The notes under the pieces were generated by a model, which had not been told where the DNA came from, did not search any database, and saw nothing but the letters and a program-made list of their open reading frames with translations. Below, in pieces: positions 52,199 to 55,583 of a stretch of DNA of 64,000 nt (the first letter of the stretch is position 1; every line of letters starts with the position of its first letter). The DNA is taken from the NCBI GenBank assembly GCA_022447625.1, contig JAKVAX010000008.1, forward strand, positions 62,001-126,000. Reading direction: 5' to 3'. Source of the DNA: Flavobacteriales bacterium. GTDB lineage: Bacteria; Bacteroidota; Bacteroidia; Flavobacteriales_D; Sanyastnellaceae. The position numbers were made by a program, and so were the translations under genes.

Positions 52199-52212
52199 CT
52201 GACGAAGGTCAG
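52199..52212. promoter_or_regulatory. CRP/FNR-type palindrome CTGAC-N4-GTCAG, site 1
   Basis: CTGACGAAGGTCAG, perfect five-base arms, about 180 bases upstream of the PAS gene. It is one of four such sites in this island. Confidence 0.6.
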
Positions 52213-52326: not shown

Positions 52327-52338
52327 TGACGGAGGTCA
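52327..52338. promoter_or_regulatory. CRP/FNR-type palindrome TGAC-N4-GTCA, site 2
   Basis: TGACGGAGGTCA is centred about 26 bases before TACCTTAGC at 52358-52366, a -7-like element. If that element is used, the site would lie near -41, the classical activator position of this family. The PAS gene starts at 52384. Confidence 0.65.
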
Positions 52339-52383: not shown

Positions 52384-52869
52384 ATGAATCGTTATATCGA
52401 CAAAAAGGACGCCTTAAAAGAAGGAGCTGGTCAGCTTCTCTTTGACACCGCAGCAGAAGGATTGATGCTGGTCAATGGTGAAGGCGAAATCTTGATCGTT
52501 AATCAACAGCTTGAAGATATGTTCGGGTACAAGGGCAATGAATTGATCGGAGAAAAGATCGAAGCATTGGTGCCTCAACGCATTCGCAAGCAACACGTTG
52601 GTCATCGCGACGCCTATCACGCCAACCCGCACAAGCGCTCGATGGGGAAGGGGATGGATCTGTTGGCGGTAAAGAAAGACGGAGAAGAGTTTCCAGTAGA
52701 AATCAGCTTGAACTACATGCGAAACGAAGAGGGTGACTTGGTGGTCATGGCCTTGGTTACTGATATCAGCGATCGAAAACGCGCTGAAATTGCACTTCAA
52801 GACTTGAGTGCTTCCTTGAGAGAGGGTCGGATCGAAGCGCGATTTGCTTTAAGGAGAGCTAACGTTTGA
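52384..52869 (+). CDS. PAS-domain remnant of a sensor kinase
   Basis: A 161-residue protein consisting of one PAS/PAC domain: FDTAAEGLMLVNGEGEILIV, FGYKGNELIGEKIEALVP, KDGEEFPVEISLNYM, VVMALVTDISDRKRAE. It then stops within about 20 residues. In this family the PAC segment normally leads into HisKA and HATPase domains. Here only the last residues of a kinase survive, in another frame (52853-52927), directly before the regulator gene. So the kinase core seems to have been deleted. The PAS protein may still be made. Two TGAC palindromes lie upstream. Confidence 0.85.
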   Translation: MNRYIDKKDALKEGAGQLLFDTAAEGLMLVNGEGEILIVNQQLEDMFGYKGNELIGEKIEALVPQRIRKQHVGHRDAYHANPHKRSMGKGMDLLAVKKDGEEFPVEISLNYMRNEEGDLVVMALVTDISDRKRAEIALQDLSASLREGRIEARFALRRANV

Positions 52870-52927
52870 AAGTAAAGAGCATTCGGGATCACGATTCACG
52901 ATAACCCTTCCTATACGAGATCTATGA
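52853..52927 (+). pseudogene. C-terminal tail of a histidine kinase, core deleted
   Basis: The frame encodes GELTFESKEHSGSRFTITLP followed by IRDL and TGA at 52925-52927. The FESKE..GS.FTITLPI ending is the standard last strand pair of a HATPase_c domain. The TGA overlaps the ATG of the REC-CRP gene (ATGA), the coupling expected of an intact kinase-regulator operon. The frame differs from that of the PAS ORF, and a TAA at 52850-52852 precedes it. Confidence 0.8.
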
Positions 52928-53991
52928 AAAAGATACTGTTGATCAAAGACAATGAGGCCATGCGCGAAAACACAGCAGAAATGCTGGAGTTGGCGAACTA
53001 TGAAGTGGTGACTGCAGAGAATGGTAAGGTAGGTATGGAGAAAGCCAAGAGCGTTTCTCCTGACTTGATCATTTGCGACATCATGATGCCAGAGTTGGAT
53101 GGTTACGGGGTGTTATATTACCTAAGTAAAGATCCTTCGACAGCAGCGATTCCGTTCATTTTCTTGACCGCTAATGCGAAAGCTAGCGAAGTGCGCAAAG
53201 GGATGAACATGGGGGCTGACGACTACCTCACCAAACCATTTGAAGAAATGGACTTGTTGAGTGCGGTTGAAAGTCGTTTGCGAAAAGTGGAATCGATTCA
53301 ACGTGAATACGATCCTTCAGAAGAAGGTTTCGACGCCTTCTTGTCAGATGCACGTGGGGTAGCTGACTTAGAAGAGCTTTCTAATGATCGAAAGTCGCGC
53401 ATGTACTTGGCTAAAGAAGTCATCTTCCGTGAAGGAGATTTTCCGAATTACCTCTACTTGCTTCGCAAAGGAAAGGCGAAGATCATTAAGACAGATCACT
53501 ATGGGAAGGAGTTGGTTGTTCAACTCGTAGCTCAGGGTGACTATTTCGGATTCATGTCGATTCTAGAAGGAAAAGACCACAAGGAAACAGCGATCGCATT
53601 AGAGAATGCCGAAGTGCTGATGATTCCTCGTGCTGATTTCTTGACGTTGATTGAAAGTAACCGTGATGTGGCGGTGCGATTCATTCGCATGTTGGCGGGA
53701 TCTATTCATGAGCAAGAACTTCGTTTGCTTCAATTGGCTTACGCGCCAGTTCGCGAGCGCACGGCGTGTGCCTTGTTGGAGCTCTATAATCGCTTTGTCA
53801 AAGAAGGTAACGCTGAGATGATTCGCATCTCTCGTGACGATCTAGCATCAATGGTGGGGACGGCAATGGAATCGTTGATCCGCACCTTGAGTGATTTCAA
53901 AGAAGACGGAACGATTACTGTAGAAGGAAGATCGATCACCGTGAACAAGCCTGAAGTACTGAGCCAATACTGTGGTCAGCCGGTAGGCTAA
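52924..53991 (+). CDS. Response regulator fused to CRP/FNR-type effector (REC-cNMP-HTH)
   Basis: A 355-residue regulator. The receiver domain (1-120) has phospho-Asp in LIICDIMMPELDG, Thr in FLTANA and Lys in YLTKPFEE. The first acidic residue of the usual pair is replaced by Lys (LLIKDNEAM). A cyclic-nucleotide-binding-like beta-roll follows (about 155-270, VIFREGDFPNYLYLLRKG, DYFGFMSILEG), then a CRP helix-turn-helix (ISRDDLASMVGTAMESLIR). The Glu and Arg of the recognition helix (E...R) fit TGA-containing half-sites. It probably controls the four TGAC palindromes around it. Confidence 0.9.
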   Translation: MKKILLIKDNEAMRENTAEMLELANYEVVTAENGKVGMEKAKSVSPDLIICDIMMPELDGYGVLYYLSKDPSTAAIPFIFLTANAKASEVRKGMNMGADDYLTKPFEEMDLLSAVESRLRKVESIQREYDPSEEGFDAFLSDARGVADLEELSNDRKSRMYLAKEVIFREGDFPNYLYLLRKGKAKIIKTDHYGKELVVQLVAQGDYFGFMSILEGKDHKETAIALENAEVLMIPRADFLTLIESNRDVAVRFIRMLAGSIHEQELRLLQLAYAPVRERTACALLELYNRFVKEGNAEMIRISRDDLASMVGTAMESLIRTLSDFKEDGTITVEGRSITVNKPEVLSQYCGQPVG

Positions 53992-54008: not shown

Positions 54009-54026
54009 AGCTGACCGAAGTCAGCT
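54009..54026. promoter_or_regulatory. CRP/FNR-type palindrome AGCTGAC-N4-GTCAGCT, site 3
   Basis: Perfect seven-base arms around CGAA, between the regulator stop (53991) and the small ORF at 54075. TCCTTCGAAC follows at 54046-54055 and recurs at 54415-54424 near the Usp gene. Confidence 0.65.
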
Positions 54027-54074
54027 CCCTGGCTGGCGTATCGATTCCTTCGAACATAATACTACCGATTCAAT

Positions 54075-54272
54075 ATGAAACTCGCATTGAATACAGACCA
54101 GACCATCGGAGGCTTTCGAGAGCAGTTCAATCAACTCTTTCCTCGACTATCCATTCAATTATTCACTCAGCCTCACGGCGTTGGAGAAGGCTCCCCAGCT
54201 GCGGAGAAAGTGGATGAATGCGACAGATCACTCTGTGCCGGTAGAACACACCTATTTCAGAAACCACATTGA
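54075..54272 (+). pseudogene. Truncated small Bacteroidota protein
   Basis: A 65-residue ORF. Its first 50 residues (TIGGFREQFNQLFPRLSIQL, then FTQPHGVGEGSP) resemble the N-terminal half of a roughly 110-residue Bacteroidota family that I recall with the pattern TI..F...FP.L.I.FF..H..GEGS. The second half, normally another copy of the fold ending in WTLxxQNxKG, is missing and the frame ends in HLFQKPH. This suggests an internal deletion like those in its neighbours. Function of the family unknown. Confidence 0.45.
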
Positions 54273-54366
54273 GCTCTCGGATCGCATGCAGCGATTTGAA
54301 GAGTGATGGAAGGAGTGGAAGAATGATTTCAACCGCTTCCTCAGCAAGTGGATGCAAAAAACCTGA
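54172..54366 (+). pseudogene. Out-of-frame coding remnant with internal stop
   Basis: In the +1 frame relative to the ORF at 54075, the sequence reads as plausible protein (LEKAPQLRRKWMNATDHSVP, VEHTYFRNHIELSDRMQRFE), stops at TGA 54304, and continues WKEWKNDFNRFLSKWMQKT to TGA 54364. Codon use looks coding-like. I do not recognise the family. The final stop lies inside palindrome site 4. Confidence 0.3.
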
Positions 54367-54376
54367 CAAATGTCAG
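54363..54376. promoter_or_regulatory. CRP/FNR-type palindrome CTGAC-N4-GTCAG, site 4
   Basis: CTGACAAATGTCAG, five-base perfect arms, about 70 bases upstream of the Usp-like gene. TCCTTCGAAC at 54415-54424, as near site 3, may mark the promoter. Confidence 0.65.
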
Positions 54377-54445
54377 TTTGATGACTGGGGCACATCATAG
54401 TGTCCCGGCATCTATCCTTCGAACTTTGTAACCAACTTTTCCGTT

Positions 54446-54760
54446 ATGGAAAGAATTCTGGTACCCACCTATTTTTCCAAGTACGCGAACTACGCGGCTG
54501 AAGTAGCAGCTGATATTGCGAAGCAAACGGGCGCGCGCGTCTTTCTTTTGCATGCACTTGATATTCCGCATTACGGAACGAATGATCGTTTCGATGACGT
54601 CCCAGATACGGCTGAAGGCATCTTCATGCTGAAGCGGGCCAAACAGGAATTCCATAAACTCATCTCTCAGCCTTTCTTTGAAGGAATCTTCCACAAGAGT
54701 GTGAGTCGCTCTTTGAGTATGTATACCAACAAACCAGTGTTGGTCATTCCAGAAGGATGA
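54446..54760 (+). CDS. Internally deleted universal stress protein
   Basis: A 104-residue protein. Residues 1-80 (MERILVPTYFSKYANYAAEV ... ARVFLLHALDIPHYG ... FMLKRAKQEFHKLIS) are the N-terminal part of a Bacteroidota UspA. Residues 81-104 (IFHKSVSRSLSMYTNKPVLV) look like the very end of the second Usp domain. Single-domain Usp proteins are about 140 and tandem ones about 280 residues, so an in-frame deletion is likely. The usual PTDFS reads PTYFS, losing the Asp of the nucleotide site. Preceded by palindrome site 4. Confidence 0.75.
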   Translation: MERILVPTYFSKYANYAAEVAADIAKQTGARVFLLHALDIPHYGTNDRFDDVPDTAEGIFMLKRAKQEFHKLISQPFFEGIFHKSVSRSLSMYTNKPVLVIPEG

Positions 54761-54793: not shown

Positions 54794-54842
54794 TCAAGCT
54801 ATGTATCAAATAGCAAGAAGGGGAGGGCGAAAGTTCTCCTCT

Positions 54843-55583
54843 TTAATTCCCCACTCTCACACGCCCCTCTCCATTCACAATGGCGAAGGTCACAGGTAGG
54901 ATGAAGTTGCTTCCAATGGATTGCTCGTTGCGCTCAGCTGGAGTCCAAAGGGGCTTGTCCCAAACGCATTCCAAAGCCGCTTGATCGAGGAAGTAGTGTG
55001 CACTTTCGGACACGGCAACGTCGCGTACCAATCCGCCTTCATCGATGCGGAATGAGACTTTTACTGTTCCCGAGATGTCTTTTTTGAGCGCTTCTTTTGG
55101 GTAGAGCGTATTCTCTTGAATAAAGGTCACGAGTTCTAAATAACCTCCAGGGAACTGAGCCGGCTTGTCGGTGACTTTGTTGTTGTAGATCGATTGTGGA
55201 TCAGGGTATACGCGATCAGCTTTCGCTTGACCGTTCCACTCCCAACGTTTCCAGATGCCACATTTCTGTCCTTTGCAGAAGTAGCCTTCTGACTCTATTT
55301 GTCCGTTGCGATAGTAGTAGCTGAACTGCCCGTCTTCCACGGATAGGTCTTTGTCGGCATAGGTGCCTTGCATCTTCAGTTTTCCCGAGATGTAATACAT
55401 GCGTACGGTTTTGTCTCCGTTACCTTCGGAAACGATGGTGCGGTAGTACTGCGCCATTGAATCGTGTGATACGGGCTCGTAGGTGCTACTGAGGTACTCG
55501 CGTTCTGACGACTGAGCGAACGATTCCGCGCTAGCGAAAAAGATCACCACGACCAGAAACAGTATGCGTTGGATCAACCACAT
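54843..55583 (-). CDS. MORN-repeat plus TonB C-terminal domain protein
   Basis: A 246-residue protein with signal peptide ending SFAQ. Residues about 65-125 carry MORN-like variant repeats (ISGKLKMQGTYADKD, FSYYYRNGQIESEGYF, GIWKRWEWNGQAK). The C-terminal TonB domain is VKVSFRIDEGGLVRDVAVSE ... LDQAALECVWDKPLWTPAER. There is no N-terminal anchor beyond the signal peptide, so it is likely periplasmic or surface-exposed and not a classical energy transducer. A 13-mer copy lies in the signal-peptide codons. Confidence 0.85.
   Translation of the reverse strand: MWLIQRILFLVVVIFFASAESFAQSSEREYLSSTYEPVSHDSMAQYYRTIVSEGNGDKTVRMYYISGKLKMQGTYADKDLSVEDGQFSYYYRNGQIESEGYFCKGQKCGIWKRWEWNGQAKADRVYPDPQSIYNNKVTDKPAQFPGGYLELVTFIQENTLYPKEALKKDISGTVKVSFRIDEGGLVRDVAVSESAHYFLDQAALECVWDKPLWTPAERNEQSIGSNFILPVTFAIVNGEGRVRVGN
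55524..55536 (+). repeat. Dispersed 13-mer, copy 9
   Basis: Exact copy, antisense to the TonB-domain gene, which reads it as Ala-Ser-Ala-Glu within the signal peptide. Confidence 0.8.

Follow-up and report, generated by a model that had tools for sequence, protein, structure and literature searches.

The locus considered here raises the question of whether a series of short open reading frames, lined up around an uncut regulator gene and beneath intact operator-like sequences, are genes in the course of being lost or short forms that have been kept for functions of their own. The window analysed is a stretch of 64 kb (positions 62001-126000 of contig C75) from the Flavobacteriales genome G000, whose assembly comprises 3.9 Mb in 76 contigs and is 99.8% complete; the named relatives with which it was compared are Flavobacteriales and other Bacteroidota. 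The island in question begins at operator 1 (52200), ends with a short Usp ORF (54760) and contains a PAS-only ORF, a receiver-CRP regulator with REC, cNMP-binding and Crp HTH domains (Pfam), a 65-aa ORF and a 104-aa Usp-like ORF. We think it very probable that this island is the decaying remains of a FixLJ-FixK-like oxygen-response module, and that G000 has also lost the cbb3 oxidase cluster that was the probable target of the module.

An earlier note on the same DNA, which had weighed recent decay against selected short forms, proposed a comparison with intact orthologous islands, and such islands exist. In G002, a member of the same genus with a regulator that is 97% identical, the island is complete and encodes a kinase of 512 aa (PAS, HisKA and HATPase domains), a REC-CRP regulator of 355 aa, three small ORFs (65, 115 and 134 aa) and two genes of the Usp family, the first of which (Usp1) has two Usp stretches according to Pfam. 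The whole gene set is likewise present in G001 (same genus, regulator 80% identical) and in G007 (same family); in these three genomes it includes an ORF of 113-128 aa, Usp1 of 282-288 aa and Usp2 of 265-291 aa, together with ORF134. The kinase and Usp genes of G016 are full-length, ORF134 not being among the genes listed at that locus, and the contig of G026 begins within the kinase and carries full-length genes 3' of the regulator. Intact orthologues in close relatives, as expected for pseudogenes, are thus available for the island. No Pfam family matched ORF115 or ORF134 of G002 at 0.01. The 65-aa small ORF of G002, which lies between the regulator and ORF115 (L047, 1171-1365 bases after the regulator start on the gene strand) and has hydrophobic stretches, found no match in the 80 named loci that represent the best 80 of 567 confirmed relatives.

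Relative to G002, five stretches of 630, 365, 230, 473 and 1375 bp are missing from the island, three of them at direct repeats of 6-11 bp. They hit the kinase (twice), the G002-type 65-aa ORF, ORF115 with ORF134, and Usp1 with Usp2, such that six of the seven genes are broken and the regulator alone is uncut. The estimate of at least three damaged genes in the earlier note was therefore an understatement, the further 230-bp deletion having removed most of the G002-type 65-aa ORF. At the upstream end, operator 1 (TGACGAAGGTCA, 52200-52211, the same in G002) has pheT (minus strand, start 52128) on one side and the kinase remnant on the other, and operator 2 (TGACGGAGGTCA, 52327-52338) retains its half-sites around a spacer that is not as in G002. 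The kinase remnant (52384-52869, plus strand) is a 161-aa ORF in which the first ~144 of 512 codons are followed by two deletions and a frameshift; 630 bp are absent at J1 (52815-52817, 2-bp repeat) and 365 bp at J2 (52840-52847, 7-bp repeat GATTTGC), and because of these two deletions the kinase is PAS-only, in agreement with the earlier statement that it had been deleted. The 3' end of the kinase gene persists out of frame (52848-52927, plus strand), with one of its codons turned into a stop (S488*). The regulator gene (355 aa, 52924-53991, plus strand) has an open frame and is followed by operator 3 (TGACCGAAGTCA, 54012-54023, the same in G002), by J3 (54029-54035, 6-bp repeat TGGCTG), where 230 bp and with them most of the 65-aa ORF of G002 are gone, and by the 3' remnant of that ORF (54036-54062, plus strand). 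The 65-aa ORF of the window (54075-54272, plus strand), which had been said to match only the first half of a Bacteroidota family, indeed consists of codons 1-48 of the 115-aa gene and, beyond J4 (54219-54220; 473 bp absent, no exact repeat), of the end of the 134-aa gene read out of frame. The out-of-frame remnant with an internal stop that was reported behind it can be identified as the 3' part of the 134-aa gene (54220-54354, plus strand), which has an internal TGA at codon 118 (54304-54306) and has lost its own stop codon as well.

Beyond operator 4 (TGACAAATGTCA, 54364-54375, the same in G002) lies the 104-aa fusion ORF (54446-54760, plus strand). Alignment to G002 confirms that it combines 80 residues of one Usp protein with 24 of another: the 1375-bp deletion at J5 (54673-54684, 11-bp repeat TTCTTTGAAGG) joined the front of Usp1 (residues 1-80) to the last 24 residues of its neighbour Usp2, and the repeat sits in codons for FFEG in both genes alike. 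Residues 2-57 match PF00582 at profile positions 3-58 of 141 only, which falls short of a complete Usp domain (~141 positions). The Asp of PTDFS, to which we ascribe an ATP-site role in Usp proteins, has been replaced, and the PTYFS seen earlier results from D9Y, one of five changes (K2E, D9Y, Y15N, G23D and A52V) derived on the G000 branch. Farther downstream, at site J6 (54840-54849, 9-bp repeat TTTTAATTC), G002 has an extra 1383 bp that were set aside as a candidate for a sixth deletion; they hold a 397-aa ORF that is not listed at this site, after Usp2, in G001, G007 or G026, and J6 is therefore more likely to be an insertion in G002 than a deletion in the window. This ORF (L047:5293-6483), flanked by the 9-bp repeats, matches the CAP12/Pycsar TIR domain below threshold.

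The deletions are concentrated in the island to a degree that exceeds chance expectation. The flanking sequences align to G002 at 94-95% identity with one gap in 8164 bp upstream and none in 6697 bp downstream, and the island has 5 indels in ~5.6 kb as against ~8 large indels, counted by eye, in ~140 kb of collinear C75 and G002 sequence (Poisson P ~2e-5, or 5e-4 with the background doubled). The exact repeats at the five junctions (2, 7, 6, 0 and 11 bp) add up to 26, a sum that was reached in none of 20,000 trials with random deletions of the same sizes (mean 3.5); J1 and J4 have no real repeat. Further copies of Usp1, Usp2 or the kinase were not found in the G000 assembly, in which the sole other Usp gene is located on C5 and has a score resembling that of the G002 gene at 3311312. 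In a 200-kb stretch of G002, 121 of 178 ORFs of at least 80 aa have a partner in the 152-kb C75 (the stretch is longer than C75, and 57 have none), and partner coverage falls below 80% in seven of the 121, four of which belong to the island; conversely, 117 of 125 C75 ORFs have a G002 partner and 8 have none, and the partners of the 117 include no shortened one. Shortened ORFs outside the island include C75:20455-20661 and C75:136164-136760, the partners of G002 genes of 458 and 269 aa. G000 may decay somewhat more than G002 in general, the counts outside the island (3 vs 0) being too small to tell.

The surviving island sequence bears its own marks of decay. With G001 as outgroup, the differences separating G000 from G002 were placed on one or the other branch; they are given here as nonsynonymous:synonymous counts, leaving out 2 nonsynonymous and 34 synonymous island changes that the outgroup could not place. 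On the G000 and G002 branches, respectively, these counts are 3:4 and 2:6 for the kinase parts, 9:15 and 1:19 for the regulator, 1:3 and 1:2 for ORF115, 6:0 and 2:0 for ORF134, 5:2 and 0:2 for Usp1, and 0:1 and 0:2 for Usp2, for island totals of 24:25 and 6:31 (Fisher P 0.003). The controls, pheT (3:25 and 3:36) and 11 ORFs on C56 (44:201 and 29:161), amount to 47:226 for the 12 genes together on the G000 branch; a difference between island and controls is seen for G000 (P 6e-6) and not for G002 (P 0.8). The dN/dS-type check that had been suggested thus reveals relaxed constraint, and the loss of purifying selection that is expected of pseudogenes is observed for the island on the G000 lineage. 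For the remnants alone, the difference between 15:10 on the G000 branch and 5:12 on the G002 branch is below significance (P 0.07), and that between 15:10 and the controls on the G000 branch is pronounced (P 8e-6).

The regulator shares in this relaxation despite its open frame. Its 9:15 on the G000 branch stands against 0:20 on that of G002 (P 0.002), where in this test only the one nonsynonymous count, L179L, a step within a multi-change codon, was taken as synonymous; against the controls, P is 0.03. The changes derived on the G000 branch are E8K, V38M, K84N, E86K, A148D, T160M, Q220K, T315M and Q334E. An alignment of 20 regulators shows no variation at E8 and V38 in the 19 besides that of G000, and K or R at position 84; G000 itself has K, M and N, respectively. 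Two of these are catalytic positions of receivers, E8 belonging to the acidic pair and K84 being the invariant Lys. The phospho-acceptor Asp is retained in G000, and T315M is located within the HTH, adjoining a conserved ESLIR stretch.

Elsewhere in the genome, G000 has lost a gene cluster that might explain why the island is no longer maintained. The cluster in G002 (1449494-1459549) comprises hemN, a copper-type P-ATPase, a fused ccoN/O (PRK14485), a ccoP-like gene, CcoG and ORFs of 64, 145 and 248 aa, with one CTGACN4GTCAG between the P-ATPase and ccoN. In G000, a net deletion of ~9.6 kb leaves ~53 codons from the start of hemN fused to the terminal part of the 248-aa gene; around the join, ~50 bp are poorly aligned. 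The operator upstream of the hemN remnant has been kept (CTGACCTAGGTCAG; G002 differs by one half-site base), and the remnant itself has a count of 4:0, one of the four changes being at the junction. The only PF00115 match in G000 is the aa3-type subunit I, and G001, G002, G007 and G016 have a second subunit I beside hemN. Across 60 genomes, with G000 excluded, ccoP occurs in 21 of 32 genomes with a full regulator vs 6 of 27 without one (P 0.0015), and within the same family in 17 of 24 with vs 0 of 12 without (P 5e-5). These are hand counts at E <= 1e-15 for ccoP, a threshold adopted because no genome scored above the cut-off of TIGR00782 itself, and at E <= 1.7e-60 for the regulator. A kinase-like match lies within 1.5 kb upstream of the regulator in 79 of the 80 named loci (best 80 of 567 confirmed relatives), and the 49 full-length loci among these 80 include ccoN/O in 25 cases, hemN in 26, Usp1 in 19 and ORF115 in 3. 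The pair of PAS kinase and REC-CRP regulator (loci L066-L145) is widespread in Bacteroidota, and about half of its full-length loci are near cbb3 and hemN genes. Such linkage and co-occurrence suggest that the cbb3 oxidase set is the target most likely controlled by the island module. We infer that its loss preceded the decay of the island, and deletion of the oxidase cluster is a likely cause of that decay; seven of the 24 family genomes with the regulator are without ccoP at the chosen threshold, so that the module may persist where the oxidase is lost.

The claim of the earlier note that all operators stay perfect holds insofar as the sites are intact, although the spacer of operator 2 differs in G002, and their persistence gives no evidence of selection. 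The 64-kb window contains four matches to TGACN4GTCA, all within the island, a number that is by itself mildly above chance (mean 1.36; four were reached in 4 of 100 shuffles). Operators 1, 3 and 4 are unchanged in G002 and the half-sites of operator 2 are conserved. When the same five deletions were placed at random, all four operators were spared in 9-17% of trials (9% and 12% with no protection of the regulator; 13% and 17%, from 124 and 81 accepted trials, with it protected), and selection on the operators is therefore an unneeded assumption. Operator 1 is 72 bp before the start of pheT and 184 bp before that of the kinase; being nearer to the former, it possibly has a role at the intact pheT. 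For the longer CTGACN4GTCAG, G000 has 5 sites and G002 has 8 (reversed control 3 and 5), a small genome-wide excess; of the five sites in G000, one is within an ORF, one precedes the kinase remnant or, on its other side, pheT, and three stand before the 65-aa ORF, the Usp fusion and what is left of hemN. A wider regulon based on TGACN4GTCA was considered and discarded: G000 has 76 such sites vs 41 in the reversed control, and 13 of the first 15 are inside ORFs of at least 120 aa, for which reason only CTGACN4GTCAG was used. In the 80 named loci (best 80 of 567), counts that cover all positions, promoter or not, give 256 TGAYN4RTCA vs 40 and 112 in two controls, and 36 strict TGACN4GTCA vs 22 and 13. 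As sites and gene linkage suggest, the regulator may act at TGAC-N4-GTCA-like sequences.

The same observations bear on explanations other than decay. It is very unlikely that the PAS-only protein, the 65-aa ORF and the Usp fusion are short forms under selection that gained new functions beneath the same operators. The frames of 161, 65 and 104 aa are open, the Usp fusion is in frame and the operators are intact; but an in-frame Usp join is expected by chance in one case out of three, the operators survive by chance in 9-17% of trials, and the remnants stand at 15:10 against 47:226 for the controls, the Usp1 part at 5:2 with the Asp of PTDFS gone. Thus, of the two possibilities between which the earlier note had left the choice, selection on short forms finds no support in these counts, and recent decay is the reading to retain because of the intact relatives, the branch-specific relaxation, the stop codons in the remnants, the absence of second copies and the deletion of the probable target operon. 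It is also very unlikely that the regulator persists as a kinase-free, phosphorylation-independent transcription factor for which the operators have been kept. Its open frame, the retained phospho-acceptor Asp, the intact operators and the position of operator 1 near the intact pheT would be compatible with such a role; the 9:15 as compared with 0:20 in G002, the substitution T315M in the HTH by ESLIR, and the location of the five CTGACN4GTCAG sites of G000, one intragenic and four before cut genes (or, in one case, before pheT), argue against it.

Some observations speak against the decay reading: the open frame and retained phospho-acceptor Asp of the regulator, the P of 0.07 for the remnants against G002, the family genomes that have the regulator and no ccoP, the small excess of CTGACN4GTCAG, the closeness of operator 1 to pheT and the lack of a real repeat at J1 and J4. 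The whole case also rests on one assembly in 76 contigs, and some or all of the deletions might be absent from the organism through an assembly or sequencing fault. In favor of such a fault is the gene for subunit I of the aa3 oxidase (ctaD), which in G000 has a 4-bp deletion and frameshift at position 182821 of C56 (L203, G000:C56:176001-190000) even though it is otherwise strongly constrained (2:38), a combination that resembles an error. We nevertheless rate this explanation of the island as highly improbable. Misassembly would not make the stop codons, the lost stop or the 24:25 seen in the surviving island sequence, the damage strikes two probably linked loci on different contigs, and the junction repeats of 0-11 bp are shorter than the words used by assemblers. 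No bd oxidase was found in G000, G002 or G016, and a genuine ctaD frameshift would leave G000 with no intact oxidase of the types searched. Because an aerobe is unlikely to lack every intact oxidase, the frameshift is probably a sequencing or assembly error; single indels in the G000 assembly therefore need checking. An error in ctaD would not account for the island, where the surviving sequence bears its own marks of decay. If the frameshift were real, G000 would show a Flavobacteriales lineage in the midst of abandoning oxygen reduction. That G000 is losing aerobic respiration altogether, with cbb3 deleted, no bd, the module decaying and ctaD frameshifted, seems to us exceedingly improbable.

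The decay of a FixLJ-FixK-like module can be pictured as follows. In G002, a PAS-HisKA-HATPase kinase adjoins the regulator, as it should in such a module. The best structure match of the PAS domain is the sensor kinase 10jx (E 1e-15), followed by the haem PAS structures of FixL (2cmn, E 2e-11) and DosP. Of 89 loci with a PAS match, a few genomes being counted twice, 88 retain the His that aligns with that of the FixL RHDSY motif, which we take to be the PAS haem ligand in FixL. In the relatives, a PAS histidine kinase, probably haem-based, would phosphorylate the receiver-CRP regulator, and the latter, to judge from sites and linkage, would act upstream of its own island and of the cluster with the cbb3 oxidase, the copper ATPase and hemN. 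The most likely scheme, by analogy with FixLJ-FixK, is that oxygen sensing by the kinase leads to phosphotransfer to the receiver-CRP protein and to activation of cbb3 and stress genes. In G000, as comparison with G002 shows, the ~9.6-kb deletion accounts for the loss of the oxidase cluster, and the five island deletions have damaged the kinase, Usp1, Usp2 and three small ORFs. The operators would linger where deletions and substitutions have yet to strike, which is consistent with chance. The island would represent a closely bracketed case of the death of a regulon, in which targets and sensor are deleted, the regulator changes at catalytic positions with its frame still open and the operators linger as chance permits. 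It warns against taking intact operators or short open frames as good evidence of function, and it connects to cbb3 respiration a Bacteroidota pair of kinase and REC-CRP regulator of which no description was found among the literature matches listed.

The island can be compared with several known systems. Like the FixL-FixJ-FixK system of rhizobia, it combines a PAS histidine kinase, a receiver and a CRP-type regulator, with cbb3, CcoG and hemN genes as probable targets. Unlike that system, it occurs in a different phylum, its receiver and CRP parts are fused in one protein, and the best match of its PAS domain, for which haem binding is a prediction, is the 10jx kinase and not FixL. The position of the FixL Arg, presumably R220, is occupied by Met in G002 and by M, L, V, I, R and others in the aligned rows shown. 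The 104-aa fusion resembles the Usp family (PF00582) in that its residues 2-57 fit the profile, and departs from it in ending at profile position 58 of 141 and in the altered Asp of PTDFS. Bacterial pseudogenes under deletional bias, as described by Kuo and Ochman (2010; PMC2916853), are young disrupted genes with faster substitution and kilobase deletions, and the island likewise exhibits young disruption, accelerated substitution and deletions on the kilobase scale. What sets it apart from those pseudogenes is that one lineage is losing a regulator together with a probably linked set of targets, and that a single island has been struck by five internal deletions, each separate from the others.
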